Assembly: GCA_943789375.1 (NCBI GenBank)
Contig: CALSTX010000016.1
Span: 1-64,000, forward strand
Direction of reading: 5' to 3'
Length of the DNA stretch: 64,000 nt
DNA from: an uncultured Opitutales bacterium
GTDB lineage: Bacteria > Verrucomicrobiota > Verrucomicrobiia > Opitutales > Seribacteraceae
The notes under the pieces were generated by a model that was not told the DNA's origin, did no database searches, and was given only the letters and a program-made list of their open reading frames with translations. Positions 30,736-48,381 of the stretch are shown piece after piece (within the stretch, counting starts at the first letter, position 1; every line of letters begins with the position of its first letter). A program made the position numbers and the translations under genes.

Positions 30736-31599
30736 ATGAAATTATCATCCACCCGTACCCTCATCCTAACACTCACGCTTGCTGTATTTTCCTCCTTTGC
30801 ATTTGGGGCTAAGAAAGTCGTTTTCTTGGCTGACGGCGGGAAAAACAACGAAAAGCATAACCATGTCGATGGGAATGACATTTTGGCTGCTGCCCTCGAG
30901 GAGAGTAAACTGGGTTTTAAAACTGCCCAATACAAAGGCTGGCCAGCTGACCCCAAAGCCTTTGATGGAGTGGACTCTGTTGTTATGTTCTGTAACGGAG
31001 GAAAGAAACATCACTTGGTGATGAAGCACCTCGACCAATTTGAAAAGATGATCAACGATGGAGTGGGGTTTGTATTCATGCACTATGGTGTGGAAGTACC
31101 CAAGGGAAGAGCTGGAGATTTGATGCTCCGGGCAATGGGTGGATACTTTGAAGAACACTGGTCGGTAAACCCTCACTGGAAAGCAGATTTTAAATCCTTA
31201 CCCAAGCACCCAATTACCCGTGGTGTTAAACCTTTTGTGCAGGATGATGAGTGGTACTACCATATGCGCTTCCAGCCAAACATGAAGGGCGTTACCCCCA
31301 TTCTCTCTGCACATCCTCCTCAGTCCACCATGAACCGCCCGGACGGACCCCACTCCAATAACCCCCATGTTCGTAAATCTATGGCAGCCGGAGAAATCCA
31401 ACACATTGGATGGGCCTATGAACGCCCCAACGGCAAAGGACGTGGGTTCGGAACCACCGGTGGACACTATCACAAGACCTGGGCAAGAGATGACTGGCGC
31501 ACTTTGATTTTAAATGCAATTATTTGGACATGTGGAACCGAAGTTCCTGAAGGTGGGGTTCCATCAATTCCAACATTAAATATTCCTGTCCCTAAGTGA
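30736..31599 (+). CDS. Exported ThuA-like protein
   Basis: A 287-residue protein with signal peptide (TRTLILTLTLAVFSSFAFG). The body matches ThuA-like domains, a glutamine-amidotransferase-like fold found in trehalose-utilisation and many PVC-group secreted proteins: VVFLADGGKNNEKHNHVDGN, VVMFCNGGKKHH, GFVFMHYGVEVPKG, and GGHYHKTWARDDWR at the end. Function outside the trehalose context is not settled. It lies 174 bp after the sulfatase. Confidence 0.88.
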   Translation: MKLSSTRTLILTLTLAVFSSFAFGAKKVVFLADGGKNNEKHNHVDGNDILAAALEESKLGFKTAQYKGWPADPKAFDGVDSVVMFCNGGKKHHLVMKHLDQFEKMINDGVGFVFMHYGVEVPKGRAGDLMLRAMGGYFEEHWSVNPHWKADFKSLPKHPITRGVKPFVQDDEWYYHMRFQPNMKGVTPILSAHPPQSTMNRPDGPHSNNPHVRKSMAAGEIQHIGWAYERPNGKGRGFGTTGGHYHKTWARDDWRTLILNAIIWTCGTEVPEGGVPSIPTLNIPVPK

Positions 31600-33636: not shown

Positions 33637-33836
33637 GGATTCGGTTAGGTTTTGATAAAAGAAAAGAAAAGAAATCAAACCAAGGAAAGACAAAATGAAC
33701 AAGTATTATCGGGCTCTTTATCTTAGATTCTAAAAGAGATAATTAACATTTCTCCTTGAAACTAAATCAAATTATTTTGCTATTGTTGACAAAATAAATT
33801 TGCACTCTCCTTTTTTGGTATAAAGATGAGGGGCAG

Positions 33837-34712
33837 ATGAGTTTAGTCACCCGTATCAAAAACGAAATAGGCTCGCGCCTGGAAAGAAGTGAGGATCTGC
33901 AAATCCCACTTACTGTTCAGGGGTTGAGTGAACATTATGGAGTAAGTTATACCCCTGTAAGGGAAGCAATTGGGGAGTTGATCGGGGTCGGATTAATCCG
34001 CAAAAAAAGCAACGGCCGACTCGAAGCGACTCCCCCCAATAAACGAACAAAGAAATCAATCTTCCTGACCAAAAAGGAATCTGAAAAGAAACCGGTGGAC
34101 AATATTACCAAAGAACTGGTGGAAATCAGTCTTGGCGGGGAAGAGTGTTTTGTTCGGGAAGAAACCACTGCCAGCAAGCATGGCCTGACCCGATCGACCT
34201 TGCGTCAAATCTTGCAACGCCTCGCTGGGGAGGGCCTCCTCGAACATGTGCCAAGACGAGGATGGCGGGTAAAACCATTCCGTCAGGAAGACATGGATGC
34301 ATTTATTGAAGTCCGCGAAGTAATGGAGTTAAAGGCCGTGGATTTGGCCAAGGCCAAGTTATGTTCCCAGGAGTCCCAAAGGAAACTTCGGCAGATAAGA
34401 GAAAATAACCAGTTGGCTAAAGGGAAGAAAGATCAGGCAAAAATTGATAATTCCTTGCACGCTTATCTTATCGATCTGGCAGCCAATCCATACATTAACG
34501 ATTTTTTCAACCGGCACGGTCGATATTTTACCATTCTATTTAATTGGGAAGGAGAGAACGAGAAAGCAGCCGCTGAAGCAGTTACCCAGCATCATGAAAT
34601 TATTGATGCCTTGCTTGCCCAAAACTGGTCCTTTGCAAAGAAGCTACTTTCCCATCACTTTCATAGTAACCACCCAGTGCTCAGCAACCTCAGAGGAATT
34701 AAAAACAAGTGA
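33837..34712 (+). CDS. GntR-like regulator with two winged-helix domains
   Basis: A 291-residue protein. Residues ~1-60 carry one GntR-type helix-turn-helix (LTVQGLSEHYGVSYTPVREA, then GLIRKKSNGRLEA). Residues ~95-150 carry a second (EETTASKHGLTRSTLRQILQ, then LLEHVPRRGWRVKPF). The C-terminal helical part has FCD-like features (VREVMELKAVDLAKAKL, and QHHEIIDALL). Two DNA-binding units in one chain are unusual. It is the first gene of the rightward carbohydrate cluster and overlaps the next gene by one base, so it probably responds to a sugar intermediate and controls the cluster and the divergent GH gene. Confidence 0.82.
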   Translation: MSLVTRIKNEIGSRLERSEDLQIPLTVQGLSEHYGVSYTPVREAIGELIGVGLIRKKSNGRLEATPPNKRTKKSIFLTKKESEKKPVDNITKELVEISLGGEECFVREETTASKHGLTRSTLRQILQRLAGEGLLEHVPRRGWRVKPFRQEDMDAFIEVREVMELKAVDLAKAKLCSQESQRKLRQIRENNQLAKGKKDQAKIDNSLHAYLIDLAANPYINDFFNRHGRYFTILFNWEGENEKAAAEAVTQHHEIIDALLAQNWSFAKKLLSHHFHSNHPVLSNLRGIKNK

Positions 34713-35728
34713 TGAAAAATGCTTTTTTAAGGTTCATCGGTTTACTGGTTACAGCGTCGTGCATCTTTGCCGAAGAAAAGTCTGAATTGATCATAAACGG
34801 ATCCGACTGGTTCGATACAGAGGGCCGTAAAATATCCGCCCACGAGGGAGAACTGGCACGCTTCGGCGATTATTTTTACTGGTATGGCAGCAGTTACAAA
34901 AATAATCCACAAGGCAAGTTTCGTATGACTGCGGGCCCGGTATGGAATGGTGTGCAGGTATACCGCTCGAAGGACTTGGTAAACTGGGAATATCGCGGAA
35001 TATGTCTACCCCGCCCCGAAAAAGGATTTGGTAAACTGGGAGCCACAGGAAGGTCACATATACTCTATAATAAAAAGACCAAAAAGTATGTGATGTGGTA
35101 TCGATGGTTCGTGGCGATGCCTGCATCTTTTTTAATGGTCGCCACCGCGGATCATCCAGAAGGTCCATTCACTCCCCTGGGTGCAAGGGAAGTGGGTACA
35201 TCGACGGGTTTTGGTTCAGACATGAATATATTTCAGGACGATGATGGAAAGGCATATTTAGTTTACTGCGACCACAACAAGCCGGAAACCGGAGGAAACT
35301 GGAGATACGCCATCCGCATAGACAGCCTGACTGATGATTACCTCAATAGTAATCGTGAGGGAGCGATGGTTTTTGGTGGTGGTAATGAGGCACCTGCGAT
35401 GACCAAGTACAAAGGTAAATACATTGCACTTGCCTCAGGTGTACATGGATGGGCCGGTTCCGAAACTGTGTGTGCCACTGCAGATTCGCCGCTTGGTAAA
35501 TGGACACCCCAAGGACACATCACTGAAAAACGAACATGGGGATCACAAGTTACAGATTTAATCTACATAGAGGAATCCGATCAGGTATTGGCTTTGTGTG
35601 ACCAGTGGTGGATACCGGACCGAGCGGATATTGACAAGTCACGCTATCTCTTTCTTCCTCTTCGCTACGACTCCATCTCGGGCAAGGCAAAGATGGAATA
35701 CCTGGAAAAATGGAACCCTCTAAACTGA
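34712..35728 (+). CDS. Exported GH43-like glycosidase
   Basis: A 338-residue protein starting at the ATG of GTGATGA (34712; GTG at 34709 also possible) with signal peptide (FLRFIGLLVTASCIFA). The sequence has the five-bladed propeller look of GH43-type enzymes: AHEGELARFGDYFYWYG, FGSDMNIFQDDDGKAYLVY, GGGNEAPAMTKYKGKYI. The Glu in NEAPAM and Asp residues in the other two motifs are candidate catalytic residues. GH43 enzymes cut arabinose- or xylose-containing or galactan-type glycosides. Its place next to the regulator suggests it frees the sugar that the following genes consume. Confidence 0.78.
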   Translation: MKNAFLRFIGLLVTASCIFAEEKSELIINGSDWFDTEGRKISAHEGELARFGDYFYWYGSSYKNNPQGKFRMTAGPVWNGVQVYRSKDLVNWEYRGICLPRPEKGFGKLGATGRSHILYNKKTKKYVMWYRWFVAMPASFLMVATADHPEGPFTPLGAREVGTSTGFGSDMNIFQDDDGKAYLVYCDHNKPETGGNWRYAIRIDSLTDDYLNSNREGAMVFGGGNEAPAMTKYKGKYIALASGVHGWAGSETVCATADSPLGKWTPQGHITEKRTWGSQVTDLIYIEESDQVLALCDQWWIPDRADIDKSRYLFLPLRYDSISGKAKMEYLEKWNPLN

Positions 35729-35744
35729 GCAGTTGGACAAAAGT

Positions 35745-36071
35745 ATGGGTTTATTCCTTTTAGTTTTTACGACATCAATTGCCACAGCTCTTAACGGAGC
35801 CAAAGAGATTAGTTACGACGGGGACCATCACCCCCGATGCTTCACCACATGGATGGCGGAGCAGGGGTTCCATAGGGCTTAAGATATGGAGAGACGGATG
35901 AGTAACTGTTATAATATTACCAAAGACCCTGTCCATGTAAGAGATCTCCATGCAACCATGCTCGATCAGTTGGGCATCAATCACCAGGAATTGACTTACC
36001 CCTTTCAGGGAATTGATCAAAAACTTACCGGGGTTGAACCAGCACGTGTGGTGCACGATTTACTGATTTAA
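35745..36071 (+). pseudogene. DUF1501 protein C-terminal remnant
   Basis: The stretch keeps the ending of DUF1501 proteins: GDHHPRCFTTWMA, then [20 protein letters not shown] and GIDQKLTG, closing with VVHDLL. It is interrupted by a TAA and a frame change between 35877 and 35910. The N-terminal 30 codons are unrelated. It sits 16 bp after the GH43-like gene inside the carbohydrate cluster, so a larger gene was lost here. Confidence 0.75.
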
Positions 36072-36102
36072 AAAGTACGAAAAAAAAGAAATTCCTCTAA
36101 CT

Positions 36103-37485
36103 ATGCAACCGACCAAAATTGGATTCCTTCCCCTCTATTTAAAGTTGTACGATGAACTGTTTCCAGAAATGCGGGAGACCATGGAGAAGTTCTCCTCTGA
36201 TATACAAACCGAACTACTGAGTAAAGGTATAGAAGTTATTCCCGCACCAATTTGCCGGACTGAAGAGGAATTTAAAGAAGCAGGAAAAATATTTACTGAT
36301 TGCTCGGCGGTTGTGTGCCTGCATCTGGCATACTCACCCTCCTTGGAAAGCATAGATACACTGGTTTCCCTAAACAAGCCATTGATTATGCTGGATACGA
36401 CCATGAACTCATCTTTTGGCAAAGATGCAACCGTGGATGATTTGATGAACAATCATGGAATACACGGAGTTCAGGATTTGTGCAGTCTGCTGAAAAGAAA
36501 GGGGGTACAGTATTTTGTGGAAACCGGTCACTGGCAGGAATCCGATGTTATCGAGCGGGTGGCGAACCTATGCAAGGCAACAAACGCAGCCAATTCCATG
36601 AAGGGTGGAAAAGTAGGATTGATTGGAAAGTCTTTTCACGGAATGGGGGATTTTGCCATAACCCCGGAAGATTTGGAAAGGTGGATCGGTACAAAGGTTG
36701 AACCATTTAAAACCGGGCAAATCCTTGAGCTACTCAATTCCTTGACCGAGGAAGAAATCAAGAAAGAGATGGACCTGGACCTCTCTGCATTTGACCTTGG
36801 AAAATATGATGAGGATGCACACCGGAGAACGGTACGAATGAGCCTGGTCGTCCGGAAATGGGTGGAACAAAACGACCTGCTTGGGTTTTCGATGAACTTT
36901 GCTGATTTTGATCGGTCAAAGGGATTTGAATGTGTGCCCTTCATGGAGGCAAGCAAGGCCATGGCAAGCGGTACCGGATATGCCGGAGAAGGAGATGTAT
37001 TGACCGCGGCTTTTTGCGGAGCTTTATTGCAAATCTTTCCTGCGAGTAGTTTTACTGAAATCTTTTGTCCGGACTGGAAAGGAAACAGACTATTTCTCAG
37101 TCATATGGGTGAAATGAACCCCGCGATTTCGGATGGTAAGATGTTGATGACGGCGAAGGATTATATCTTCTCTGATATTGATTCGCCAATGATGGCATAC
37201 GGCAGTTTCAGACCAGGAATTGCAGTACTGGCCAACCTTGCCCAGACCGAGGAAGGGAAATTTACCCTGACCTTAAGCGAAATGGAAGTACTGGAAGGGA
37301 GGAATGTGGAAAACTTAGAGGAAGCCATCCGTGGATGGATCCGTCCCAAAATTCCAGTCGATCGGTTTCTTGAAAAATATAGTGAAGTTGGCGGTACCCA
37401 CCACCAAGTCCTGGTCTATGGTGATAGCTTACGCACCCTCATCGCCTTTGGTAAAATGATGAACTTCTCCATATCAATTATATGA
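36103..37485 (+). CDS. L-fucose/L-arabinose isomerase-superfamily protein
   Basis: A 460-residue cytosolic protein of the fucose/arabinose isomerase superfamily. The first part (PTKIGFLPLYLKLYDELFPE) and the metal-binding parts (GEGDVLTAAFCGALLQI, FLSHMGEMNPA, GTHHQVLVYGD) match the pattern of isomerases that turn an aldose into a ketose with Mn2+. The Glu in GEGD and the histidines of GEMN and GTHHQ are likely ligands by position. It starts the compact gene run that follows, overlapping the next gene by four bases. The particular sugar cannot be inferred. Confidence 0.85.
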   Translation: MQPTKIGFLPLYLKLYDELFPEMRETMEKFSSDIQTELLSKGIEVIPAPICRTEEEFKEAGKIFTDCSAVVCLHLAYSPSLESIDTLVSLNKPLIMLDTTMNSSFGKDATVDDLMNNHGIHGVQDLCSLLKRKGVQYFVETGHWQESDVIERVANLCKATNAANSMKGGKVGLIGKSFHGMGDFAITPEDLERWIGTKVEPFKTGQILELLNSLTEEEIKKEMDLDLSAFDLGKYDEDAHRRTVRMSLVVRKWVEQNDLLGFSMNFADFDRSKGFECVPFMEASKAMASGTGYAGEGDVLTAAFCGALLQIFPASSFTEIFCPDWKGNRLFLSHMGEMNPAISDGKMLMTAKDYIFSDIDSPMMAYGSFRPGIAVLANLAQTEEGKFTLTLSEMEVLEGRNVENLEEAIRGWIRPKIPVDRFLEKYSEVGGTHHQVLVYGDSLRTLIAFGKMMNFSISII

Positions 37486-38519
37486 ATTTTGAAATAAAGC
37501 AGACGGACAAAGAATTTTATCAGGAGTACCTTCAGGATTTCCTCCCTGAAAATATTATCGATGTGCATACACATTGTTATGAAAAAGAAACAGTACATTC
37601 AGAAAAGGAACAAGATAGCAGACTGGCTGCCTGGCCGCTCTTGGTTGCGGATGAAAACCCCATAGAGGACCTTATGGAAACTTACCGCATGATGTTTCCG
37701 GGAAAGAAAGTAACTCCTTGTATCTTCCCCTGGATTGAACCGGAAAACAAAATTGTGGAACTAAACCGATATGTTTTGGACTGTGCGGAAAAACACAATA
37801 TACCCGCATTACTCCTTGCCCTACCCCATTGGTCTGCCGAAGAACTCGAAGCCAGACTGATTGAACGGAAGTTCAACGGAATCAAGGTATACCTGAGCTT
37901 TGCTCCTTCCTACCTACCACGGGACGAAGTAAGGATTTATGATTTCCTACCACCTTCACAACTGGAGGTATTGGACAGGCTTGGGCTTGCTGTGATGTTG
38001 CACATTCCAAGATCCGGAAGATTAAAAGACCCGGTAAACCTTGGCCAAATCCTGGAAATTGAACAGAACTATCCAAACCTAAAACTCATACTTGCTCATG
38101 TTGGCCGAGCTTATTGCGAAGAAGATGTAGGCGATGCATTTGAGATTTTAAAAAAGACTGAGCGACTGACTTTCGACTTCTCGGCCAATACCAATGCCAA
38201 GGTATTTGAATGGGCAATCAATGCGGTTGGACCGCAACGTATGATTTTTGGCAGTGATCTACCAATCACCCGGATGAGAATGCGACGAATCACCAAGAAT
38301 GGAAAGTACCTAAACCTTGTACCCAAAGGATTGTATGGAGATGTATCCGATGATCCAAGCATGCGCGAGATAGAAGGAGAAGAAGCGGACCGCCTGTCCT
38401 TCTTTATTTACGAAGAAATCAAATCGATCAGGGAAGCGGCGATTAATACCCGATTAAACAAAGGAGAAATCGAAGATCTCTTCTTTAATAATGCACACCG
38501 CATGTTGGGCCTAAGTTAA
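37482..38519 (+). CDS. Amidohydrolase_2 family metal-dependent hydrolase
   Basis: A 345-residue TIM-barrel hydrolase. Metal-site motifs are IIDVHTHCYEKE (HxH), HIPRSGR, LILAHVGRAYCEED and MIFGSDLPITRMR (the final Asp). Family members open lactones, decarboxylate or isomerise sugar acids. The four-base ATGA overlap with the isomerase gene suggests coupled expression. In a sugar-breakdown cluster a lactonase role is reasonable, but that is inference from context. Confidence 0.85.
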   Translation: MNFEIKQTDKEFYQEYLQDFLPENIIDVHTHCYEKETVHSEKEQDSRLAAWPLLVADENPIEDLMETYRMMFPGKKVTPCIFPWIEPENKIVELNRYVLDCAEKHNIPALLLALPHWSAEELEARLIERKFNGIKVYLSFAPSYLPRDEVRIYDFLPPSQLEVLDRLGLAVMLHIPRSGRLKDPVNLGQILEIEQNYPNLKLILAHVGRAYCEEDVGDAFEILKKTERLTFDFSANTNAKVFEWAINAVGPQRMIFGSDLPITRMRMRRITKNGKYLNLVPKGLYGDVSDDPSMREIEGEEADRLSFFIYEEIKSIREAAINTRLNKGEIEDLFFNNAHRMLGLS

Positions 38520-38525
38520 AACTCA

Positions 38526-39995
38526 GTGGCAGTGCCAAAAAAATATCTGATTGGGATGGACTTGGGAACAAGTTCGATCAAGGCCGTGCTCTGTAAAAGT
38601 GATGGAAAAATAATCGCTCAGGAAAGTGCCGAAACAACCATAATTAAACCATCTACCTGTGAAGCAGAGATTGATCCCGAGCAGTACTTTTTAGAATTCA
38701 CCGGATTGGTAAAATCCTTGGTTTCGCATATAGATGACCCTGAAGAAATCAAAGCCATCTGTTTAAGCGGTGCCACCGGAAATACCATTTTGCTCGATCA
38801 TGCATCTAAACCATTGGCCCGTGCAATCAGTTGGCTGGACACAAGAACACTGATTGAGGGCGAGGATCCTTGGACCGACTTGGACAAGGAACAATTCTAT
38901 CAAAAAAACGGATGGCCCTACTTCGGTACCTTTCCTCTGGCCCATTTGGGATGGTTAAAAAAGAACAAACCAGAACTTTGGAAACAAGCCAGGCGATTTG
39001 CGATGCTGCATGACTTCATCTTTGAAAAACTCTGTGGCCTGTGGATCATTGATCATTCCAAAGCAACCACCTTTTATTTGCAGGATCAGGTGCAAAGAAA
39101 GTGGAACCTAGAGCTTTTGAGCACTTTGGGAATTCAGGAAACACAACTCCCACAATTGTGCGAAACTGGTAAGGCATGTGGATCACTCACTCCCGAAATT
39201 TGTGAACTCACCGGTTTGTCTACTACAACAATGCCTGTAACCGGCAGTTTTGACCACCCCTCCGCCGCCCGGGGAACCGGAGTTTGGGAAGAAGGTGATC
39301 TGCTTATTTCAGCCGGTACTTCCTGGGTCGTATTCACACCTGTAGAAAACAGAGAAATTGCCCTGAAAGAAAATATGCTTATCGACCCTTTTCTTTCAAC
39401 CAATGGATGCTGGGGTGCCATTTTTGCTCTTACCGCAGTGGGTGAGAAATTGCATAAATTATTGGCCAAAGTATTTCCCTCGAAAAGCAACGAAGCAATG
39501 TACGAACACTTCAATAGTCTGGCCATGGAAGCAGAACCGGGAGCAGGTGGTACCATTGTCAATTTGCTCGATCATACCGAGGAGGAAAACTGGAAGGTCG
39601 CCCAATCCTGTACTCCTCAAAACTTATGCCGTGCATTGATGGAAGGGATTGTTTTCCAGATCGCCCAACGCGTGGAGCAGGTCAATCTACTTACCGGAAG
39701 ATCTTCTGGGAAATTGATTTTTACGGGCGGACCGACAAAGAGTGCAATCTGGACTTCGATCCTCGCAGATGTGCTTAACCGACCAGTAAGCATACCTAAA
39801 GATGGAGAATATGCCGGAGCTATGGGAGCAGTGATTCTTGGAGGAATGGGTTGTGGAATCTATTCAGATGAACGGGACGGTTTCAATCAGTTAAAACACC
39901 CATTCACAACTACCCAACCCGATCTCGCCTGCAGCGATTCATACATAGAAATCCAGCGACATTTTCATAAGGAAACCGCAATGGTATCCCAATAA
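38526..39995 (+). CDS. FGGY-family carbohydrate kinase
   Basis: A 489-residue sugar kinase with GMDLGTSSIKAVLCKSDGK (first ATP-binding part), SWLDTRTLIEG, GSFDHPSAARGTGVWEEG and FTGGPTKSAIWTSILAD (C-terminal ATP site). The family phosphorylates ketoses and polyols, such as xylulose, rhamnulose or glycerol. The start is a GTG at 38526 (another GTG at 38532). Its place after an isomerase fits the common isomerase-then-kinase order, suggesting it phosphorylates the ketose made by the first gene. Confidence 0.9.
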   Translation: MAVPKKYLIGMDLGTSSIKAVLCKSDGKIIAQESAETTIIKPSTCEAEIDPEQYFLEFTGLVKSLVSHIDDPEEIKAICLSGATGNTILLDHASKPLARAISWLDTRTLIEGEDPWTDLDKEQFYQKNGWPYFGTFPLAHLGWLKKNKPELWKQARRFAMLHDFIFEKLCGLWIIDHSKATTFYLQDQVQRKWNLELLSTLGIQETQLPQLCETGKACGSLTPEICELTGLSTTTMPVTGSFDHPSAARGTGVWEEGDLLISAGTSWVVFTPVENREIALKENMLIDPFLSTNGCWGAIFALTAVGEKLHKLLAKVFPSKSNEAMYEHFNSLAMEAEPGAGGTIVNLLDHTEEENWKVAQSCTPQNLCRALMEGIVFQIAQRVEQVNLLTGRSSGKLIFTGGPTKSAIWTSILADVLNRPVSIPKDGEYAGAMGAVILGGMGCGIYSDERDGFNQLKHPFTTTQPDLACSDSYIEIQRHFHKETAMVSQ

Positions 39996-40022
39996 TTTCA
40001 AAACAAATATCCAAAACCTTAG

Positions 40023-40745
40023 ATGACAACCAACAAACCTATAAAAACCCTTCCAAAATCTCCATTCTTTGAAACCAGTGTAAAGAATTACATCTTTGGA
40101 GACGCAGTATTGGACTATGCAAAAGCAGTTGATGAGGCCGCCATCCGCCATGATGTGGATGCGATCTTCATCGCCCCCTACACTGAGATTCGCAGAATTG
40201 CCGAGAATACAAGTCGTGTTCTTGTCTTTGCCCCTTACATGGATACTTTGCGACCCGGTCGGGGAATGGCAGATGTATTGCCCGAAGCCATACTCGATGC
40301 TGGTGCAAAGGGAGTATTACTTAACCATTGTGAACGCCCCATGACTCTGCCCCAGATCAAAGAAACAATCGACCGGGCAAATGAAATCGGTTTGATCACT
40401 TTTGCCTGTGCCGACTCTATTGCCGAAACCAAGGGGATTGCACAGTTCGAGCCGGACATTATCAACCCGGAACCCAGTGAACTGATCGGTACAGATCAGG
40501 CAAGTGACATGTCCTATGTGATCGAGACTTTGAAGGTGGTTAAGCAAATTAATCCGAACATTTTGGTCGAACAGGCAGCAGGTATAACCACGGGTGAGCA
40601 AATTTACGACTTCATCATGGCGGGAAATGATGCCGCTGGCTCGGCCTCGGGTATTCTTAAGTCCAAGGACCCAATGAAACTGCTCGATGAAATGGTCTAC
40701 AATGTCAGCCGGGCCAAAAGAAATCTTCAATCCAAAACCAACTAA
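40023..40745 (+). CDS. Triosephosphate-isomerase-like protein, atypical
   Basis: A 240-residue (beta/alpha)8 protein of the triosephosphate isomerase superfamily. Candidate catalytic residues are kept: K21 (TSVKNY), H102 (LLNHCER) and E150 (PEPSELIGTD). The surrounding motifs differ from the housekeeping enzyme: N-x-K is S-x-K and YEPVWAIGT is replaced by PEPSELIGT. Relatives of this branch act on tetrose phosphates or other small sugar phosphates in accessory pathways. In this cluster it probably isomerises a short sugar phosphate after kinase action. Confidence 0.82.
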   Translation: MTTNKPIKTLPKSPFFETSVKNYIFGDAVLDYAKAVDEAAIRHDVDAIFIAPYTEIRRIAENTSRVLVFAPYMDTLRPGRGMADVLPEAILDAGAKGVLLNHCERPMTLPQIKETIDRANEIGLITFACADSIAETKGIAQFEPDIINPEPSELIGTDQASDMSYVIETLKVVKQINPNILVEQAAGITTGEQIYDFIMAGNDAAGSASGILKSKDPMKLLDEMVYNVSRAKRNLQSKTN

Positions 40746-40755
40746 AACGTTAACC

Positions 40756-41253
40756 ATGAAAATTGTCCGAGAAACTCTCGACCTCAAATCCACTGGCCAG
40801 CGGCCTACCTTTCACACGATCACCGATGAGGTGAAGAAAATTGTTCATCAATCAGGTATCCAACTGGGATCGTGTCTGGTTTATTCACGACACACCACCT
40901 GTGCTGTAATGATAGACGAAGACTCCTTTGACAAGGCATACACCGGACTGACTTACTTGCAGCAGGACCTTGCAGATATTTTTGAGAACATCATTCCTAC
41001 CTGCAGAAAAGAAGGTCAGTATATGCACCCAGGTCCGGAACTTACCGTATTTGCAGCCAAGCACGGGGAGGACAAACCGGGAACATTAAATACCGATGCC
41101 CATTTACGATCATCCATCATGGGCAGAAGTGAAACCATACCCATTTTCGAGGGAAATCTGGAACTTGGAGAGTTTGGGCATGTCTACTTTGTGGACTTTG
41201 ATCACACCCGTTCGCGCAACCGTCAGGTCATCATACAGGTATCCGGAGAATAA
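40756..41253 (+). CDS. YjbQ (UPF0047) family protein, copy 1
   Basis: A 165-residue single-domain YjbQ protein. Family marks are VYSRHTTCAVMIDED, the metal-like histidines in MHPG and DAHLRSS, and LELGEFGHVYFVD near the end. YjbQ proteins are reported to have a weak thiamine-phosphate-synthase-like activity, and their physiological role is open. The ATG at 40756 is 10 bp after the previous stop; an upstream in-frame start at 40687 would overlap it. The second copy follows 30 bp downstream. A role in sugar-phosphate chemistry is suggested by context only. Confidence 0.85.
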   Translation: MKIVRETLDLKSTGQRPTFHTITDEVKKIVHQSGIQLGSCLVYSRHTTCAVMIDEDSFDKAYTGLTYLQQDLADIFENIIPTCRKEGQYMHPGPELTVFAAKHGEDKPGTLNTDAHLRSSIMGRSETIPIFEGNLELGEFGHVYFVDFDHTRSRNRQVIIQVSGE

Positions 41254-41283
41254 ACCTTTAGAAAAATATTTAACATACAAACT

Positions 41284-41787
41284 ATGAAAATTGTCACCGA
41301 AAAAATCGCCCTTCAATCAAAAGGATTAAACCCGACCTTTCACGATGTTACCGAACAGGTAAAAGAGATCGTCAAGAACACAGGCGTACAACACGGCAAT
41401 ATCGTCGTATACTCGCACCATACTACCTGCTCGGTAATGACGCAGGAGTGCTCGCACGATAAAACCTACTTCGGATTGGAATTCCTCCAACAGGATCTGT
41501 GCAATGTCATGGAAAAACTCATACCCACTTGCAGGCATGAGGGACAGTATATGCATCCGGGTAAGGAACACATTGATTTTGCCATGAGTTTGGGCACGGA
41601 AGAGGGAGAATGGACCAGCCTTAACACCGAGGCACATCTTCGTTCGACCTTCTTTGGTCGTTCGGAAACGATTTTACTGGTGGATGGCGAGCTCCAACTT
41701 GGGGAGTTCGGATATATTTACTTCATCGACTGGGATCAGGTACGAGCACGCAAACGGGTCTGTCAGGTTCAAGTATTGGGAGAATAA
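41284..41787 (+). CDS. YjbQ (UPF0047) family protein, copy 2
   Basis: A 167-residue paralogue of the preceding gene, with VYSHHTTCSVMTQECSHD, QYMHPGKEH and LNTEAHLRSTFFGRSET. The conserved histidines are retained in both copies, so both are likely active. Differences at the active-site loop (IDEDSFD versus TQECSHD) suggest separate substrates or a heteromer. Tandem paralogues of this family in one sugar cluster are unusual. It overlaps nothing and is followed 4 bp later by the SIS gene. Confidence 0.85.
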   Translation: MKIVTEKIALQSKGLNPTFHDVTEQVKEIVKNTGVQHGNIVVYSHHTTCSVMTQECSHDKTYFGLEFLQQDLCNVMEKLIPTCRHEGQYMHPGKEHIDFAMSLGTEEGEWTSLNTEAHLRSTFFGRSETILLVDGELQLGEFGYIYFIDWDQVRARKRVCQVQVLGE

Positions 41788-41791
41788 ACAA

Positions 41792-42385
41792 GTGACAAAA
41801 TCGCCCTGGGAAGCCGCCCGGGATTCGTTCGAAATCGAATCCTCCGCTCTGGCCAATGCATTGAGTTCAATTGAGCAAAAATCATTCGAAAAGGCAGTAA
41901 AACTTCTTGCCGGTGCGGAACGCATTGGTGCAAGCGGATGTGGGCATTCTGGCATTGCCTGTATGCACTTCGCACATTTGATGTGCTGCATCGAACTTTC
42001 AGGCAGATTTATTTCTCCAGCCGAAGCAGTTCATGGAGCAAGTGGCTTCCTCAAGGAGGGAGATGTCATAGTGCTTGCCTCCCGGGGGGGGCAAACCAGT
42101 GAACTGCTTCCCATCATGGAAATATGCAAAGCTAAGAAAGTCCATATCATCGCCATTACCGAAAATATGGAATCCTCCTTGGCCAGAGGTTCTCAGGTGG
42201 TTTTAAAAATGCGAGTCGATCGAGAGGCTGACAAATTCGACAGCCAGGGAACCTCAAGTTTCGTGGTACTGTCTGCAATTTTTGATGCCTTACAAGCAGC
42301 CCTAATTGAAAAGACGGATTTCCGAAATGAACAATTTGCTAAAATCCATCCGGCCGGAGCGGTGGGAAAAAAATTAAATTCATAA
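41792..42385 (+). CDS. SIS-domain sugar isomerase (KpsF/GutQ-like, no CBS)
   Basis: A 197-residue SIS-domain protein from the GTG at 41792. Sugar-phosphate-binding motifs are GASGCGHSGIACMHFAHLM, LASRGGQTSELLPIM and IAITENMESSLARGS. KpsF/GutQ relatives interconvert arabinose 5-phosphate and ribulose 5-phosphate, but those also have CBS domains, which are missing here. The HPAGAVGKKLN ending is typical of the group. It sits between YjbQ and the symporter with 4-bp gaps on both sides, consistent with one transcript. It likely isomerises a sugar phosphate in the same pathway. Confidence 0.88.
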   Translation: MTKSPWEAARDSFEIESSALANALSSIEQKSFEKAVKLLAGAERIGASGCGHSGIACMHFAHLMCCIELSGRFISPAEAVHGASGFLKEGDVIVLASRGGQTSELLPIMEICKAKKVHIIAITENMESSLARGSQVVLKMRVDREADKFDSQGTSSFVVLSAIFDALQAALIEKTDFRNEQFAKIHPAGAVGKKLNS

Positions 42386-42389
42386 AAGT

Positions 42390-44540
42390 ATGAGCATCTG
42401 GGACGCAGTTATCTTCTTTAGCTATTTCATTGGGGTAGTCCTCTTTGCGATAATAATTTCCGCACGAAGTAAGACTAAATCTTCATCCGACTACTTTCTG
42501 GCGTCCAAAAAATTGCCCTGGTATGCGATCGGTGCATCATTTATCGCATCCAATATCTCCACCGAACATTTCATTGGTACAATTGGAATTGGTTTTCTCT
42601 ATGGGATGGCGGTGGCAAATTGGGAATGGGGAAATGCATTCACCTTTACCGCCCTTATCTGGATCTTTTTGCCTTTTTATATGCGTGGAAATGTATCCAC
42701 CATGCCGGAATTCCTCGAAAAAAGGTTCAACAAGACATGCAGGTATGCATACGCGATTGTGATGATCATCGGACTAGTCATTGCCATGCTCGGTGGTGTG
42801 CTCTTTGCGGGTGCCAAGGCAATGAATGTATTCTTCCCCCAGATTGATATTTGGATGGGCATTCTTATTCTAGCCATAGCCGCTGGCACCTACACGATTT
42901 ATGGTGGTTTACTTGCAGCTGTCTGGGCCGATGTCCTTCAATTTTTCTTACTAATGATTGGGGGAATCGTCGTCAGTGTCTTTGGTATTCATTATGCCGG
43001 AGGACTGGATAATTTGATGGAGAGTATGCCTGAGAAATTCATCATGTTCTATTCATCAGAGCATGAAACTATACCATGGAGCGGTGTATTGTCGGGACTG
43101 GTGGCTGTAGGACTGTGGTATAATTGTGCCAACCAATTTATGGTGCAAAGATGCTTAGGAGCCCGCTCCGAATGGGATGCAAGGATGGGAGTCATAATGG
43201 CTGGATTCAGTAAGGCGATTCTTCCATTCATAGTAGTCATCCCAGGGATCGTTGCCTTTTATTTGTTCCAGTCCCGGATAAGTGATGGCGACCAGGCATG
43301 GCCTTACATGGTGCAACAATTTCTGCCAACAGGATTGATCGGGCTGGTACTTGCCGGATTGGCCAGTGCGGTGATGTCTACCCTGAGTGCGATTACCAAT
43401 TCATCCTCCACCATCTTTACCCTGGATTTGTACAGAGAATTAATCCGCCCAAAAGCAACTGATGAGGAGTTGCACAAAGTCGGTCGGATAAGTGCCCTGG
43501 TTATCATTGTTATTGGTATCACCATTGCCCTGATTATTTCTGCTTTTCCAGGGGTTACCATATTTGTACTCATACAAACTGTTTTCTTCTATGTCGCTCC
43601 CCCCATTGCCGCCTGTTTCCTACTTGGAATTATGTGGAAGAAAATAACCCCTATGGCGGCAACCATTACCTTACTTATGGGATATGTGGTGTTTTTACCG
43701 CTGACCAAATTTGGTCTGTTTCCCAATCTGCCAATTTTGCAACCGTACGACACCTTTACACATCATACCTTTTTAATTTTTGTGATGTCCTGTATCACCC
43801 TTGTTGTCGTTTCTTTTTTCACTAAGCCCAAGTCTGAAGAAGAACTTGAAGGAGTAATCTGGACTAAGAGTGCTCTGAGTGTGGGCGAAGATGCAACTGG
43901 ACAATATGGTGGATGGAAAAGCATTAAACTGTGGTGGTTCCTAATGGTGGCGACCATTGCTGGACTTTATCTTTGGATGAACTCGAAAAGCAATGCATCC
44001 ACATGGTACGAAGCCGAAGATTTAGAATTTTCTGCTACTCCGGACTGTGAAATCAAGATTCAAACGCGTAAAGAAATTGCACCCGAGGAAAAATTCAATC
44101 TTTGGACAGGTACTGGGCAGGTTTTGATTCAACCCAAAGCTAATGGACAGGAGATGACCTTCACCATTCCGGTCAATGAACCTGGAAACTACAGGATTGA
44201 TGCACTGGTCACAATTGCCCCTGGATACGGTAGTTTTAGTACAACTGTAGATCAAAAAGAGGGGGATATATCTTATCCTGAGATCACTCTTACTGAAGAG
44301 AGAGACTATCTATCCAAACCCAAAACGAGCATGATTTTTGATGCACAAAAAGTTTACAAGGACAGAGAGAATAACGGGATCGAAAATAATATCGCTGGTT
44401 CGTACACTGTACAGCGGATCACTTTGGGTACTTTTGAAACAGAAGCTGATCATTTTAAAGTTTCGCTCACTTCTGAGGATTACACACCTGAACATTCTCT
44501 TCTCGGGATTGATCAATTTATCGTCACTAAAAAACAATAA
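42390..44540 (+). CDS. Sodium/solute symporter with C-terminal carbohydrate-binding-like domain
   Basis: A 716-residue protein. Residues ~1-510 are an SSS-family transporter with about 13 helices (VIFFSYFIGVVLFAIII; GASFIASNISTEHFIGTIG is the sodium-site region). Residues ~534-716 form an extra, mainly beta domain that begins WYEAEDLEF, the usual opening of CBM6/35-like carbohydrate-binding modules. It contains TFTIPVNEPGNYRIDALVT and ends HSLLGIDQFIV. The domain lies outside the last helix and would face the periplasm if topology is standard. A permease with a built-in sugar-binding module fits capture and import of the cluster's substrate. Confidence 0.88.
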   Translation: MSIWDAVIFFSYFIGVVLFAIIISARSKTKSSSDYFLASKKLPWYAIGASFIASNISTEHFIGTIGIGFLYGMAVANWEWGNAFTFTALIWIFLPFYMRGNVSTMPEFLEKRFNKTCRYAYAIVMIIGLVIAMLGGVLFAGAKAMNVFFPQIDIWMGILILAIAAGTYTIYGGLLAAVWADVLQFFLLMIGGIVVSVFGIHYAGGLDNLMESMPEKFIMFYSSEHETIPWSGVLSGLVAVGLWYNCANQFMVQRCLGARSEWDARMGVIMAGFSKAILPFIVVIPGIVAFYLFQSRISDGDQAWPYMVQQFLPTGLIGLVLAGLASAVMSTLSAITNSSSTIFTLDLYRELIRPKATDEELHKVGRISALVIIVIGITIALIISAFPGVTIFVLIQTVFFYVAPPIAACFLLGIMWKKITPMAATITLLMGYVVFLPLTKFGLFPNLPILQPYDTFTHHTFLIFVMSCITLVVVSFFTKPKSEEELEGVIWTKSALSVGEDATGQYGGWKSIKLWWFLMVATIAGLYLWMNSKSNASTWYEAEDLEFSATPDCEIKIQTRKEIAPEEKFNLWTGTGQVLIQPKANGQEMTFTIPVNEPGNYRIDALVTIAPGYGSFSTTVDQKEGDISYPEITLTEERDYLSKPKTSMIFDAQKVYKDRENNGIENNIAGSYTVQRITLGTFETEADHFKVSLTSEDYTPEHSLLGIDQFIVTKKQ

Positions 44541-44582
44541 TCTTCAACAAGTTTTAACTCTAAACACTGTAAGAAAATTAAC

Positions 44583-45848
44583 ATGAAAAACGAAAAAGAT
44601 GGCACACTAGAAGTGGAAGGCTCAAAGAAAATGACTGGTCTATCCAGGCGCGGGTTCATTCAAGGGATTGGTGGTGCAGGTGCCTTGCTTGGATTAGCTG
44701 GCAAGTCAATGGGTGCGGAAGCACCGCGCGATGCGGACGGAAATATTATCCCTGGCTTTGAAAAAATAAAGGAAGACCCTAATTCCTCCAAGGGATGGCA
44801 ACCGGTATCGGATCGAAAGGTAAAGGTGGGCATTGCAGGGTTTGGGCTTTGCCGGTTCGGTGGTGCATTCTTTTATCAAAATCATCCCAATGTGGAAGTG
44901 GTGGCCGCGACCGATCTTGATCCAGGCAGGTGTGCCGGTCTCGCCCGGGCAGTTGGAGCCAGGAAGACTTATCCATCCTGTGAGGAAATGATTCAGCAGG
45001 ATAAAGAGATCGAAGCGGTTTATATCGCCACGGATGCCCCCACCCATGCAAAGCTCGCGGTCATGGGATTAAACCATGGAAAACATGTATGCTCTGCGGT
45101 ACCAGCCGTTTTTGGATTCAAGGCAGAAGAAGAAGCCGAGGAACTCTTTGAGGCGGTCAAGAAGAGTGGTTTGAAATATGCCATGAATGAGACCTCCACT
45201 TTCCATGCCGACCTCTGGGATAAGCGAACTCAGTACCAAGCAGGTGCACTCGGAAAAATTATTTATTCCGAAGGAGAATATTATCATGATTTTGGACCAA
45301 ACGGACTCCCTGGTTACAACCCTAAAAATGGTAAGATTGATGTGAATGGTTGGCGTCGTGGGCTTCCCCCCATGTGGTATCCGACCCACTCCAATGCGTA
45401 TTATGTATCCATCACCGGTGGACGGTTTACTGAAGTATCATGCCTCGGCACGCCGGGCTTGTACAAAGAGCACAAGGAAAACCAATGGAAGAATCCATTT
45501 GGCACTGAGGTCGGTATGTTCAAAACAAGCGAGGGCGGTATCTCACGCATGGCGGTGAGTTGGGACATGAAAAATGCCCACGGTGAAAAGGGCCGGGTCT
45601 ACGGCCAAAAGCCACACAATCCAAAAATCAATGGTGTACGCCCTGCCCTCCCTCCCGGAGTTGGAGCCGGTGGACACGGAGGATCGCATGGACAATTAAC
45701 CAATGACTTCATCGAATCCATCCTGCTCGACCGAGAACCAACCGTAAATATTGGGGATTCTCTCAATATGACCATGGCTGGTGTGATTGCTCACCAATCT
45801 GCTCTCAAAGATGGGGAGTGGATGAAAATCCCACAGTACGAGCTTTAA
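44583..45848 (+). CDS. Exported Gfo/Idh/MocA oxidoreductase
   Basis: A 421-residue NAD(P)-dependent sugar oxidoreductase. A twin-arginine signal is visible near residues 18-40 (LSRRGFIQGIGGAGALLGL), so it is exported folded. The Rossmann part reads VGIAGFGLCRFGGAFF, followed by AATDLDPGRCAGLARAVGA, and AVYIATDAPTHAKLAVMGLN holds the expected core loop. It probably oxidises or reduces a sugar at one hydroxyl outside the cytoplasm. It follows the symporter by 42 bp and precedes the cytochrome gene by 92 bp. Confidence 0.88.
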   Translation: MKNEKDGTLEVEGSKKMTGLSRRGFIQGIGGAGALLGLAGKSMGAEAPRDADGNIIPGFEKIKEDPNSSKGWQPVSDRKVKVGIAGFGLCRFGGAFFYQNHPNVEVVAATDLDPGRCAGLARAVGARKTYPSCEEMIQQDKEIEAVYIATDAPTHAKLAVMGLNHGKHVCSAVPAVFGFKAEEEAEELFEAVKKSGLKYAMNETSTFHADLWDKRTQYQAGALGKIIYSEGEYYHDFGPNGLPGYNPKNGKIDVNGWRRGLPPMWYPTHSNAYYVSITGGRFTEVSCLGTPGLYKEHKENQWKNPFGTEVGMFKTSEGGISRMAVSWDMKNAHGEKGRVYGQKPHNPKINGVRPALPPGVGAGGHGGSHGQLTNDFIESILLDREPTVNIGDSLNMTMAGVIAHQSALKDGEWMKIPQYEL

Positions 45849-45940
45849 CACCAAACAGCATGGGTAACTTACAAAGTTGCTCATCGTATCGTTTTGAATT
45901 GAATAAGCCTATCTATGATCCACTTCTTTTCGAAATAGCA

Positions 45941-46936
45941 ATGCTTCGTTTCCTTTTTTTATTTGGGATGGTTGGTTCGTTCACATGCCCGCTTTTTGCA
46001 TCTAAATCAAATGGAAATGAGCCTACCGAGATAGTCTTGTACAAAGCGAATGGTTGTGTTGCCTGCCATCGTATTACCCAGGATCATATTGGTCCTTCCA
46101 TGCTGGCCGTTTCTCAAAAATACGCCAATGACCCAAACGGTGTATTAACGGTTCTGGATAGCTTAAAGAATGGGGCTAAAGGAAAGTGGGGAAACAATGT
46201 GATGCCGCCACAAAGTCATTTAAGTGACCAGAACCTGCAATTACTAACGAATTGGGCACTTGCCATTAAGGATTCTCCCAATCTGAAAAGTTGGCAGAAA
46301 GAGGAACTGGTAACTCAGGAATCAAATACGATTTTATCTGCGGATCAGCCTTTGAATGCAAAGTATTCCCTGCCGGAGGATCGGAGGGGCACGGTGGTGC
46401 AAACCTTAGATCAACCGATCGTCTATCGCACCTATCTGCCCGGAGCATCTTCACGGGCAATTGCGGTGGGTTTACCCGGGGGTATTTCTTACGCCTTTGA
46501 CGCAAAACTTTGTAAACTTCTCTATTTTTGGGAAGGTGGATTTCTTGATTTTGAAAAGTCTTGGACTGGGCATGGTGGTTGGTATTCAAAATTGATGGGG
46601 ACAAAAATCTTTGAGGCACCTGCGAGCTTCCCCCTTCGAATGGGGAGTAAGCAAAACCCTGAGGTAAAATTTCTTGGATATCGTACGGAGGGAGAACTCC
46701 CTAGCTTTCTTTACCAAATCAATGGCATAAGCGTGGAAGAAACAATTGGATTTGATGCAGATAACCGAACGATCGTGCTGTCCTTTAAGATTTCCGATGC
46801 AGAAAAACCTATCTATTTCGACCCCGGAAAAAGTTTGTCCATTTGGTCATCAGATGATGCAGTAGAACAGGAAGGTGTTTGGAAAGTACACCCTGAAAAA
46901 CGGAAAAGTTTTTCCTTCCTTGCACAGGTAAAATGA
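45941..46936 (+). CDS. Exported c-type cytochrome protein
   Basis: A 331-residue protein. The ATG at 45941 starts a signal peptide (LRFLFLFGMVGSFTCPLFA); the longer frame from 45818 overlaps the previous gene and adds unrelated residues. The heme motif is CVACH (KANGCVACHRITQDHIGPSM) and the distal methionine is in NVMPPQSHLSD. The remaining ~210 residues form an unassigned beta-rich region (TYLPGASSRAIAVGLPGGIS). It overlaps the next propeller gene by four bases. It probably passes electrons from the propeller dehydrogenase to the respiratory chain. Confidence 0.85.
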   Translation: MLRFLFLFGMVGSFTCPLFASKSNGNEPTEIVLYKANGCVACHRITQDHIGPSMLAVSQKYANDPNGVLTVLDSLKNGAKGKWGNNVMPPQSHLSDQNLQLLTNWALAIKDSPNLKSWQKEELVTQESNTILSADQPLNAKYSLPEDRRGTVVQTLDQPIVYRTYLPGASSRAIAVGLPGGISYAFDAKLCKLLYFWEGGFLDFEKSWTGHGGWYSKLMGTKIFEAPASFPLRMGSKQNPEVKFLGYRTEGELPSFLYQINGISVEETIGFDADNRTIVLSFKISDAEKPIYFDPGKSLSIWSSDDAVEQEGVWKVHPEKRKSFSFLAQVK

Positions 46937-48381
46937 TGAAAAAAATAACCCTACTTTTCATCCTCACAATCGCCTGCTCACAATTGGGTGTGTTCGCGGA
47001 TTCCTCTTACTCGGTTCAACCCTACCCTACTCCTCCCGGCATAGTGTGTGAAGTTACGGGGGTGGATTATTCGGAGGATGGCACTCTTTACATCTGTACC
47101 CGACGGGGGGATGTATGGGCCCAAAAGAACGGAGACTGGAAGAGATTTGCCTATGGGTTACATGAGCCTATGGGTCTGCTTGCCGGACCTAGTTTCGCCA
47201 TAGTCAGTCAACGCCCGGAACTAACTCGATTGGTGGATGAAGATGAAGATGGCACGGCGGACCGTTACGAAACGATCTGCGATCAGATTGCGATGGAAGC
47301 AAATTTTCATCAATACAACTATGGATTGGTGAAAGGAAAGATTGCGGGCAACCTCTATGGCATTCTCTCCTGCTCGGGATTGAGTAAACCCGATGGCTCA
47401 CCCGCAAGTGCCAATGGATTTTCTCCCATCCCCTACCGTATGTGGTCCTACCAAATTACCCCAAGCGGAGAGTTTAGGCCATGGTCGAGCGGGTTGCGCA
47501 CCGCCAATGGGATTGGAAAAAGTCCACAGGGTGAACTCTTTGCAGCGGACAACCAAGGGGACTGGGTGGCCACCTCCATGCTTCACCACTTGGAGGAGGG
47601 AGATTTTCACGGTCATCCCGCTGCCCTAAGATGGGATCAGGATTTTCCATATCCCAAGGATCCTGAATCCGCTCCCATCGGTCTACTGGAAAAAATGAGA
47701 AAACCCCCCGCGGTTCATTTTCCTCATGGAGAACTGGCCAATTCACCAGGCTCTCCAGTCTGGGATACCACGGATGGAAAGTTCGGCCCGTTTGCAGGTC
47801 AGATGTTTATTGGGGATATCGTACACCCCAGAATCATGCGTGTGGCTTTGGAAAAAGTGAACGGGCAGTATCAGGGAGCCTGCTTTTCCTTTTATCATGC
47901 CGAAGGATTGAAAGCAGGTATCTGCCGGCTTGCCTTTTCCTCAGCCGGCGAATTGATCATCGGCCGGGCGGGCGAAGGAAACTGGGGCCGTGGCCTCCCC
48001 GGATCGGGCCTGCAAAAAATCGCCTATTCGGGAACACCTCCCTTTGAAATCCATCGGATCGAATTGCAAAGCGGTGGGTTTCTTTTTCATTTCACCCAAC
48101 CGATTAATCAATCCATCAAACTCGACCCTGAAAAGTTCGGTGTCCAAAGCTACCATTACCCTTACGGACCGAATTACGGATCCCCCAAAACGGACATACG
48201 AAGAATTATCCCTGCAAATATTGAGCACACTGCAAATGGAAATGCTATCCGTATGATTGTTCCAAACTTACAAAAAAGAAAAGTTTACCAATTTAATCTC
48301 CCTCAAATACAAGATGTAGCAGGGGGAACTTTACGAAATTCAATCGCTTTCTACACGCTCAACGAACTGGTAAAAAATTAA
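46933..48381 (+). CDS. Exported beta-propeller protein, sorbosone-dehydrogenase-like
   Basis: A 482-residue protein with signal peptide (KKITLLFILTIACSQLGVFA). The propeller is indicated by EVTGVDYSEDGTLYICTRRG, TRLVDEDEDGTADRYETICD and GEGNWGRGLPG, resembling the dehydrogenase-like propeller in the 18817-21570 protein. It pairs with the adjacent cytochrome c gene (ATGA overlap). In the larger protein at 18817 similar functions are joined with a copper domain in one chain. The likely job is periplasmic oxidation of a sugar or lactone; the cofactor cannot be confirmed. Confidence 0.8.
   Translation: MMKKITLLFILTIACSQLGVFADSSYSVQPYPTPPGIVCEVTGVDYSEDGTLYICTRRGDVWAQKNGDWKRFAYGLHEPMGLLAGPSFAIVSQRPELTRLVDEDEDGTADRYETICDQIAMEANFHQYNYGLVKGKIAGNLYGILSCSGLSKPDGSPASANGFSPIPYRMWSYQITPSGEFRPWSSGLRTANGIGKSPQGELFAADNQGDWVATSMLHHLEEGDFHGHPAALRWDQDFPYPKDPESAPIGLLEKMRKPPAVHFPHGELANSPGSPVWDTTDGKFGPFAGQMFIGDIVHPRIMRVALEKVNGQYQGACFSFYHAEGLKAGICRLAFSSAGELIIGRAGEGNWGRGLPGSGLQKIAYSGTPPFEIHRIELQSGGFLFHFTQPINQSIKLDPEKFGVQSYHYPYGPNYGSPKTDIRRIIPANIEHTANGNAIRMIVPNLQKRKVYQFNLPQIQDVAGGTLRNSIAFYTLNELVKN

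Follow-up and report, generated by a model that had tools for sequence, protein, structure and literature searches.

LerI, a homologue of triosephosphate isomerase (TIM), moves a carbonyl from C2 to C3. In the catabolism of erythritol, as one report describes it, erythrose 4-phosphate is reached through three successive isomerases, EryC, EryH (TpiA2) and EryI (RpiB) (PMC5992420). According to another report, EryC, LerI and DerI likewise lead to erythrose 4-phosphate, and RpiB may have DerI activity (PMC10733421). The subject here is a cluster of thirteen genes, all on the forward strand between positions 33837 and 48381 of a 64,000-nucleotide stretch (the window) from an uncultured Opitutales bacterium. 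The window is part of contig 16 (105,032 bp) of a 2.73-Mb genome that is 92% complete. Open reading frame (ORF) translations and Pfam and NCBIfam profile scans agree with a preliminary description, made by a model from the sequence alone: all the families that it named are present, on that strand. The reading towards which we lean, with some caution, is that of a horizontally mobile sugar-catabolic operon, in which the kinase product is subsequently moved along by successive isomerases of the TIM, YjbQ and SIS families. The gene set is not unique to the source genome; what is new is a variant of the isomerase-kinase operon and of the successive-isomerase pathway. A literature search on YjbQ/UPF0047 and on the gene set, in one library, found no paper describing this pathway.

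Like the tetritol pathways, the cluster combines a sugar or polyol kinase (here of the FGGY family) with what would be successive phosphosugar isomerases, including a TIM homologue, and by analogy it may enter the pentose phosphate pathway. It differs in that no polyol dehydrogenase, EryC-type protein (PF01261) or RpiB is found among the thirteen proteins. In addition, its TIM is of an archaeal subfamily and has an altered site, YjbQ and SIS would occupy the EryC and RpiB slots, and an aldose isomerase would feed the cluster. With the L-arabinose pathway (AraA, AraB, AraD) it shares an isomerase of the AraA fold close to an FGGY kinase; however, the AraA-like protein scores far below its cut-off, the kinase is XylB-like and there is no AraD-type epimerase among the thirteen proteins. 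The logic of isomerase plus FGGY kinase is also that of the L-fucose/D-arabinose type (FucI, FucK, FucA), and FucI-like versions of the module exist in four other loci (L107, L134, L172 and L178), whereas the window cluster has no aldolase and its isomerase is of the AraA type. The isomerase had been labelled 'FucI/AraA-type'; the AraA half of that label stands, with three AraA Pfam domains over their cut-offs, and the FucI half does not. A plain arabinose, fucose or xylose operon was rejected, as scores stay under the cut-offs and neither epimerase nor aldolase occurs among the thirteen proteins. The sulfoquinovose pathway was rejected as well (SftI, NF048012: 24 against 700 bits).

The SIS protein resembles KdsD/GutQ and HxlB (PHI) in that it aligns with 3fxa and 5uqi, with an acidic residue before AVHG and a C-terminal HPxGA. 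It scores under the KpsF (TIGR00393, 109.8 against 203.7 bits), GutQ (PRK11543, 101.8 against 481 bits), KdsD and HxlB cut-offs, however, and a profile scan found no CBS domain in it. Its best match in the Protein Data Bank (PDB) is 3fxa; 2xhz, an arabinose 5-phosphate isomerase, stands lower in the list. Finally, the operons of Enterococcus faecium pQL50 and Lacticaseibacillus paracasei pLPCN-1 also have TIM and YjbQ adjacent, but in these a phosphotransferase system (PTS) and a class II aldolase replace isomerase and kinase, the TIM carries the canonical Asn, and no SIS lies within the stretch seen.

Recurrence and recent spread of the gene set

A contig scan kept 80 loci with an AraA-like protein, in records titled Clostridia, Omnitrophota, Planctomycetota, Lentisphaerae, Hydrogenedentes, Fibrobacteres and others. 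Counting genes up to 8 kb from the AraA-like one, 67 of the 80 loci have an amidohydrolase, at a median gap of 62 bp, and 59 have an FGGY kinase. By the same measure TIM and YjbQ are each present in 27, GFO in 22, a class III aminotransferase in 20, SIS in 16, a class II aldolase in seven and the sodium symporter (SSS) in five. The GntR, GH43 and propeller genes each occur once, in a near-identical relative (L019), and look lineage-specific. Homologues in other genomes, including other phyla, often keep the same neighbours, as would be expected from the preliminary description; because the pairings recur in other phyla, the grouping is more than chance. The class III aminotransferase is divergent (L023, L029, L063 and 17 more loci), has no TIM within 8 kb in any of them, and is perhaps an alternative lower half. 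An RpiB-like gene (L022:5932-6498) was observed near an amidohydrolase-AraA-FGGY set in a locus without a TIM or YjbQ match.

In the upper half, the AraA-like protein of the window reaches 111.4 bits against an equivalog cut-off of 622 (NF002795). The three-domain architecture is kept, and the positions aligned with what we take to be the four metal ligands of 7cx7 are conserved. The amidohydrolase residues H29, H31, H174, H206 and D259 are invariant in 37 of 37 aligned sequences (36 of the 52 listed ORFs plus the window protein). Its predicted model (pLDDT 92.7) is matched in Foldseek by decarboxylases and lactonase-type amidohydrolases, which leaves the choice between these two activities undecided. 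A sequence search of solved structures gave no match for it, and among 57 genomes (its own and relatives) a strong match was found only in its own; the G030 and G011 contigs end before the cluster reaches this gene. The best NCBIfam model for the kinase is XylB (TIGR01312; 239.7 bits, under the cut-off of 380) and its best PDB match is 5vm1, a xylulokinase. XylB was the best model for all six FGGY proteins scanned, each under the cut-off.

The lower half forms a separate unit, bound more closely than the upper half. TIM and YjbQ lie within 10 kb of each other in 27 of 27 TIM-bearing AraA-like loci, which were not chosen by TIM, at 28 of the 32 TIM places of the 31 regions that were retrieved on account of TIM, and in four of five plasmid records; SIS accompanies them in 16 of the first set, 21 of the second and none of the third. 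The gaps between TIM and YjbQ are mostly tens of base pairs. Small loci (n = 37) have YjbQ at 34 of 38 TIM places and largely repeat the larger regions. The sets overlap, as some genomes are in both the contig scan and the genome-sample scan; the ORFs of fetched loci were called mechanically, and a good many contigs are short. Among 387 genomes sampled from the phylum six have TIM, including the source genome, and the other five all have YjbQ and SIS nearby. In a sample of the class to which G441 belongs (the genome that holds L086, with a Clostridiales title), 38 of 291 genomes have TIM, and large neighbourhoods were fetched for 24 of 45 TIM places of this Clostridia-class sample (in batches of 20 and three regions). 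The TIM-YjbQ pair is found in Clostridia metagenome-assembled genomes from animal guts, on plasmids of Enterococcus, Lacticaseibacillus and Shinella, and in Verrucomicrobiota. Loci with a long form of YjbQ nearly all have SIS as well (both in 27 loci, SIS only in 10, long form only in one, neither in 25; Fisher p = 1.6e-8, relatedness ignored); both YjbQs of the window are short forms of 167 and 165 aa. In AH-709-B10 a single 409-aa frame (L019:13921-15147) covers TIM and YjbQ1, which are separate in the window; it is either a fusion or a sequencing indel. A SIS-YjbQ fusion in L070 was rejected as a frame artefact.

Five kinds of front end adjoin the TIM-YjbQ(-SIS) unit. In the window and in Clostridia these are amidohydrolase, AraA-like isomerase and FGGY kinase. 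A remotely FucI-like isomerase with FGGY is found in L105, L107, L134, L172 and L178 (Fucose_iso_C in L178 is under the cut-off). Some of these FucI-type loci contain TalC/FSA-like genes or a major facilitator superfamily transporter nearest PgtP/UhpC, under the cut-off; the four named earlier as FucI-like versions have a protein that we read as ceramidase-like, whose L178 copy has no Pfam or NCBIfam match. The plasmids of E. faecium and L. paracasei carry a PRD protein, a galactitol-type PTS and class II aldolase, and in E. raffinosus there is a class II aldolase with no PTS directly beside it. The fourth kind, from a plasmid of Shinella, combines a short-chain dehydrogenase/reductase (SDR) with PF01261 and FGGY, and DhaKL lies in the vicinity. 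The last consists of NagA and a NagB-like protein (L108, L130, L133 and L164), or the NagB-like protein alone (L170). TalC/FSA-like genes stand beside some TIM-YjbQ units and a transketolase beside one (L181).

The TIM of the window scores 152.9 bits (PRK04302, cut-off 132). It was rejected as the housekeeping enzyme, since a separate canonical TIM (322 bits) sits on contig 15 of the same genome. In an alignment of 63 rows the catalytic Lys is retained in all, and His and Glu in 62 of the 62 with a letter; by alignment, the catalytic residues of both AraA and TIM are retained. The Asn of NxK is replaced by Gly or Ser in 56 of 56 rows outside the aldolase (Fba) and haloarchaeal types (Ser in the window), and is present in six of six aldolase-type rows and the haloarchaeal row. 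In the AraA type this Asn is lost in 32 of 32 rows and the His of AQH has become Tyr in 31 of the 31 with a letter. The catalytic roles of these residues are presumed here. On the tree of the 63 rows, all 32 AraA-type rows fall inside one 36-row clade (support 100/100). The AraA, FucI and Fba labels each cluster (0 of 500 shuffles as low) and the Nag label does not, which suggests that TIM subfamilies track the AraA, FucI and Fba front ends. The TIM of the Opitutales genome falls together with those of two genomes from the Clostridia-class sample (support 100/98).

YjbQ1 and YjbQ2 score 89.5 and 74.2 bits, over the TIGR00149 cut-off of 67.75. Across 26 of 26 YjbQs of such modules (24 of 36 listed ORFs plus the two of the window), H20, HTTC (46-49), Y89-x-HP, NT (112-113), H116, D147/D149 and R152/154/156 are invariant. 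To our knowledge the family has no agreed physiological role, and the titles of solved YjbQ/UPF0047 structures read 'unknown function' or speak of a 'putative thiamin phosphate synthase'. YjbQ is mentioned in 22 papers of the library searched, in none of them in the title or abstract.

The cluster has spread recently by horizontal transfer; the alternative, mis-binning of contigs in several assemblies, is less likely because the identities are 94-97% and not 100%. Among named records, Opitutales bacterium AH-709-B10 (L019/G731) is the closest; it belongs to another genus of the family. Its proteins from GntR to GFO are 95-100% identical, the last two 85-86%, and DNA identity over the block 33776-48500 is 94-97%. 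Parts of the cluster are also found in G030 (another genus; 96.5% over 5.0 kb) and G011 (same genus; 95.1% over 7.1 kb). Flanking matches of more than 150 bp have 75-92% identity, and the housekeeping pgk-tpi locus has 69% in G011 and 67% in G030, with no match in G731 (77% complete). YjbQ1 is present in 4 of 42 family genomes, its own included. Base composition was rejected as a sign of transfer; the cluster (46.0% G+C) is not distinct from the rest of the window (44.8%), and the case for transfer rests on DNA identity. Upstream of the cluster, the sulfatase/ThuA region at window 27195-31520 is 91.6% identical to AH-709-B10; as the match continues there, the shared unit may exceed 20 kb.

Proposed pathway and competing explanations

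In the pathway that we propose, GH43, with sulfatases nearby, would free a sugar outside the cell and the SSS symporter would bring it in. The amidohydrolase would then open a lactone or ester, or strip a substituent. The AraA-like enzyme would convert the aldose into a ketose, which FGGY would subsequently phosphorylate. The TIM homologue, the two YjbQs and SIS would act as successive phosphosugar isomerases in place of an aldolase or the usual epimerases, shifting the carbonyl and resetting stereocentres until an intermediate of the pentose phosphate pathway or glycolysis is reached. With a C4 chain the known tetritol route would be reproduced; with C5-C6 chains the carbonyl walk would be longer. 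Uptake, reaction order, substrate and YjbQ as an isomerase are what we infer here. The preliminary description had likewise placed an isomerase, a kinase and downstream sugar-phosphate processing in that order; gene content and neighbourhoods fit this scheme and support it in part. From gene association YjbQ would act on a sugar phosphate, and its 'short' length, as then suggested for YjbQ and the isomerases, is possible by analogy, with tetrulose phosphate as the nearest precedent.

TIM, YjbQ and SIS are read as successive ketose-phosphate isomerases because of the tetritol precedent and because no RpiB-like match is nearby. None was found in 63 TIM-bearing loci with seven usable RpiB queries (E <= 1e-4; eight of ten RpiB loci gave a query, one of the eight in a wrong frame). 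RpiB lies on contigs other than the TIM contigs in seven of eight genomes, and none was found in the eighth; in the source genome it is on contig 3, outside the cluster. More tentatively, and as a possibility that we hold with clear reserve, the TIM-YjbQ(-SIS) unit could be a portable 'carbonyl-walking' cassette, in which YjbQ is a phosphosugar isomerase or epimerase passing 3- or 4-ketose phosphates between TIM-type and SIS-type enzymes. The close association of YjbQ with a re-tooled TIM, across operons of several kinds, yields a concrete and assayable hypothesis for YjbQ.

Several observations weigh against the proposed pathway. TIM stands without YjbQ at L128, L129, L131, L175 and L176, and in L164 two TIMs share one YjbQ. 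TIM and YjbQ are absent within 8 kb in 53 of the 80 AraA-like loci, some of them on short contigs. On the AraA tree (32 of 85 rows TIM-bearing, one row, L163, very long and unsure) the TIM-bearing rows are clustered, needing 12 changes against a shuffled mean of 26, yet do not form a single group. The lower half is therefore either dispensable or located elsewhere. Neighbours of the NagA/NagB-like and aminotransferase families hint at substrates with nitrogen, for which the scheme does not account. The family profile of YjbQ is labelled 'thiamine-phosphate synthase', YjbQ-type chains are the only matches to its predicted fold at E <= 0.001, and no case of a YjbQ demonstrated as a sugar isomerase was found. 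The FGGY proteins score best against XylB, though under its cut-off; XylB-type kinases phosphorylate the far end, whereas the tetrulose precedent is a 1-phosphate. Finally, no transaldolase was found in the source genome, at its 92% completeness.

A strict C4 pathway is a doubtful alternative. Here a C4 sugar or polyol, possibly derived from a larger precursor through the amidohydrolase, would be phosphorylated to erythrulose phosphate and converted to erythrose 4-phosphate, with TIM as the LerI/EryH analogue and YjbQ or SIS as the DerI/EryI analogue. The presence of a TIM homologue (EryH, TpiA2) and RpiB (EryI) in the erythritol route (PMC5992420) speaks for it. So does the Shinella locus, with SDR, PF01261, TIM, YjbQ and FGGY and with DhaKL nearby, which is very like an erythritol/threitol locus and has YjbQ where RpiB would stand; TalC-like genes and the L181 transketolase would also fit an erythrose 4-phosphate product. 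Two YjbQs and SIS, however, exceed what C4 chemistry needs, and the neighbouring NagA/NagB genes point to C6 amino sugars. Isomerases of the AraA and FucI types, like GH43, typically belong to C5 and C6 sugars, and we know of no tetroses that are abundant glycan parts. It is improbable, somewhat more so, that the substrate is itself an amino or N-acyl sugar whose C-N bond is cut before isomerisation by the amidohydrolase, as by NagA and by sister-locus proteins that we take to be creatininase-like and ceramidase-like. The NagA and NagB-like genes of L108, L130, L133 and L164, the NagB-like gene of L170 and the class III aminotransferases (20/80) point that way; but decarboxylases and lactonase-type enzymes are what the amidohydrolase model matches, no protein recognised in the window cluster deals with nitrogen, and the NagB-like protein of L133 scores only 27 bits.

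Two further explanations concern the lower half. That YjbQ is non-catalytic, as a cofactor, repair or oligomer partner of TIM or SIS, is unlikely, although its 'secondary thiamine-phosphate synthase' label might suggest such a role and the fold search at E <= 0.001 gave nothing beyond the known YjbQ fold. The 27 of 28 long-form loci with SIS would also fit partner subunits, as would the single AH-709-B10 frame. On the other side, the invariant His/Cys/Asp/Arg set (HTTC, YxHP, NTxxH, RxRxR; 26/26) looks like an active site, and no thiamin gene was recognised among the neighbours, where none was searched for. Least probable appears a place for TIM and YjbQ after aldol cleavage, with TIM converting, for example, L-glyceraldehyde 3-phosphate to dihydroxyacetone phosphate and YjbQ handling a toxic by-product. 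There is an operon type in which TIM-YjbQ directly adjoins a class II aldolase, in two cases together with a PTS, and its TIMs have the canonical Asn (6/6). The window cluster has no aldolase, however, and a class II aldolase lies within 8 kb in 7 of 80 AraA-like loci; moreover, the loss of Asn (32/32) and the change of the AQH His to Tyr (31/31) make triose chemistry less likely in TIMs of AraA-type loci.

Gene layout and boundaries

Features of the cluster, with window coordinates
Feature	Coordinates	Strand	Basis
GntR/FCD regulator	33837..34712	+	Pfam FCD 51 bits; GntR 47 bits, two stretches
GH43-like glycosidase	34709..35728	+	Pfam GH43 64 bits; leader-like N-terminus from translation
Spacer, 374 bp	35729..36102	+	Separates GH43 from AraA-like gene
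AraA-like aldose-ketose isomerase (putative)	36103..37485	+	Pfam AraA_N, AraA_central and AraA C-terminal domains over cut-offs
Amidohydro_2 metal-dependent enzyme (lactonase, hydrolase or decarboxylase)	37482..38519	+	Pfam 73 bits
FGGY sugar kinase, XylB-like	38526..39995	+	Pfam FGGY_N/C; NCBIfam XylB best
Archaeal-type TIM homologue, presumed ketose-phosphate isomerase	40023..40745	+	PRK04302 over cut-off
YjbQ1 (UPF0047)	40756..41253	+	TIGR00149 over cut-off
YjbQ2 (UPF0047)	41284..41787	+	TIGR00149 over cut-off; 56% identity to YjbQ1
SIS phosphosugar isomerase (putative), KpsF/GutQ-related	41792..42385	+	Pfam SIS
SSS sodium symporter	42390..44540	+	Pfam SSF, residues 35-431; additional C-terminal domain of about 185 aa
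GFO/IDH/MocA oxidoreductase	44583..45848	+	Pfam GFO_IDH_MocA; leader with SRRGFIQ
Cytochrome c protein	about 45941..46936	+	Pfam Cytochrom_C 26 bits; leader-like N-terminus
Propeller-like protein	46933..48381	+	DUF7133 under cut-off; propeller reading from the preliminary description

The distances from the AraA-like gene to GFO are -4, 6, 27, 10, 30, 4, 4 and 42 bp. The gaps first given for the core are correct; four-base overlaps, of which two had been counted, exist at three places (GntR/GH43, AraA/amidohydrolase and cytochrome/propeller). The GTG start of SIS was chosen in this analysis, its profile scan being run from 41750; the cytochrome scan was run from 45938 and the start read from the sequence afterwards. 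The N-terminal region of the GntR/FCD regulator (about 60 aa) looks like a second winged helix, with a TrmB-like helix-turn-helix at residues 24-58 under the Pfam cut-off. The SRRGFIQ of the GFO leader is read here as being of the twin-arginine (Tat) type.

GntR and GH43 are treated as a block apart from the core because of the spacer that follows them. The spacer is 97% identical in L019 and contains a 30-bp stretch that matches (27/30) inside a gene of L113, of the same genome. Its second frame resembles the 3' end of what we take to be a DUF1501-type gene, and the spacer is possibly a seam or scar where GntR-GH43 joined the catabolic core. The C-terminal domain of SSS (window 43980-44540) contains WYEAEDL and resembles what we take to be a carbohydrate-binding beta-sandwich; among 288 sampled phylum genomes it was matched in its own genome only. 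Profile scans place three sulfatases around the cluster (window 29293-30561, 49574-50917 and 51136-52389), and a sulfated polysaccharide is therefore suggested as the source. At window 31897-33702 lies a divergent 601-aa protein, without a Pfam match, that presumably resembles a secreted TIM barrel of clan GH-A.

Possible place in rare-sugar catabolism

TIM-YjbQ(-SIS) is a candidate lower half of rare-sugar catabolism and could supply enzymes for rare-sugar synthesis. A 2025 paper states that the proteins for tetrose uptake and the kinase (or PTS) remain unknown (PMC12780249); the PTS-aldolase-TIM-YjbQ operons are candidates. If the cassette reading is true, rare ketose phosphates of many stereochemistries would be converted end-over-end to common ones with no aldol cleavage, and bacteria would attach the TIM-YjbQ(-SIS) unit to varied sugar front ends.

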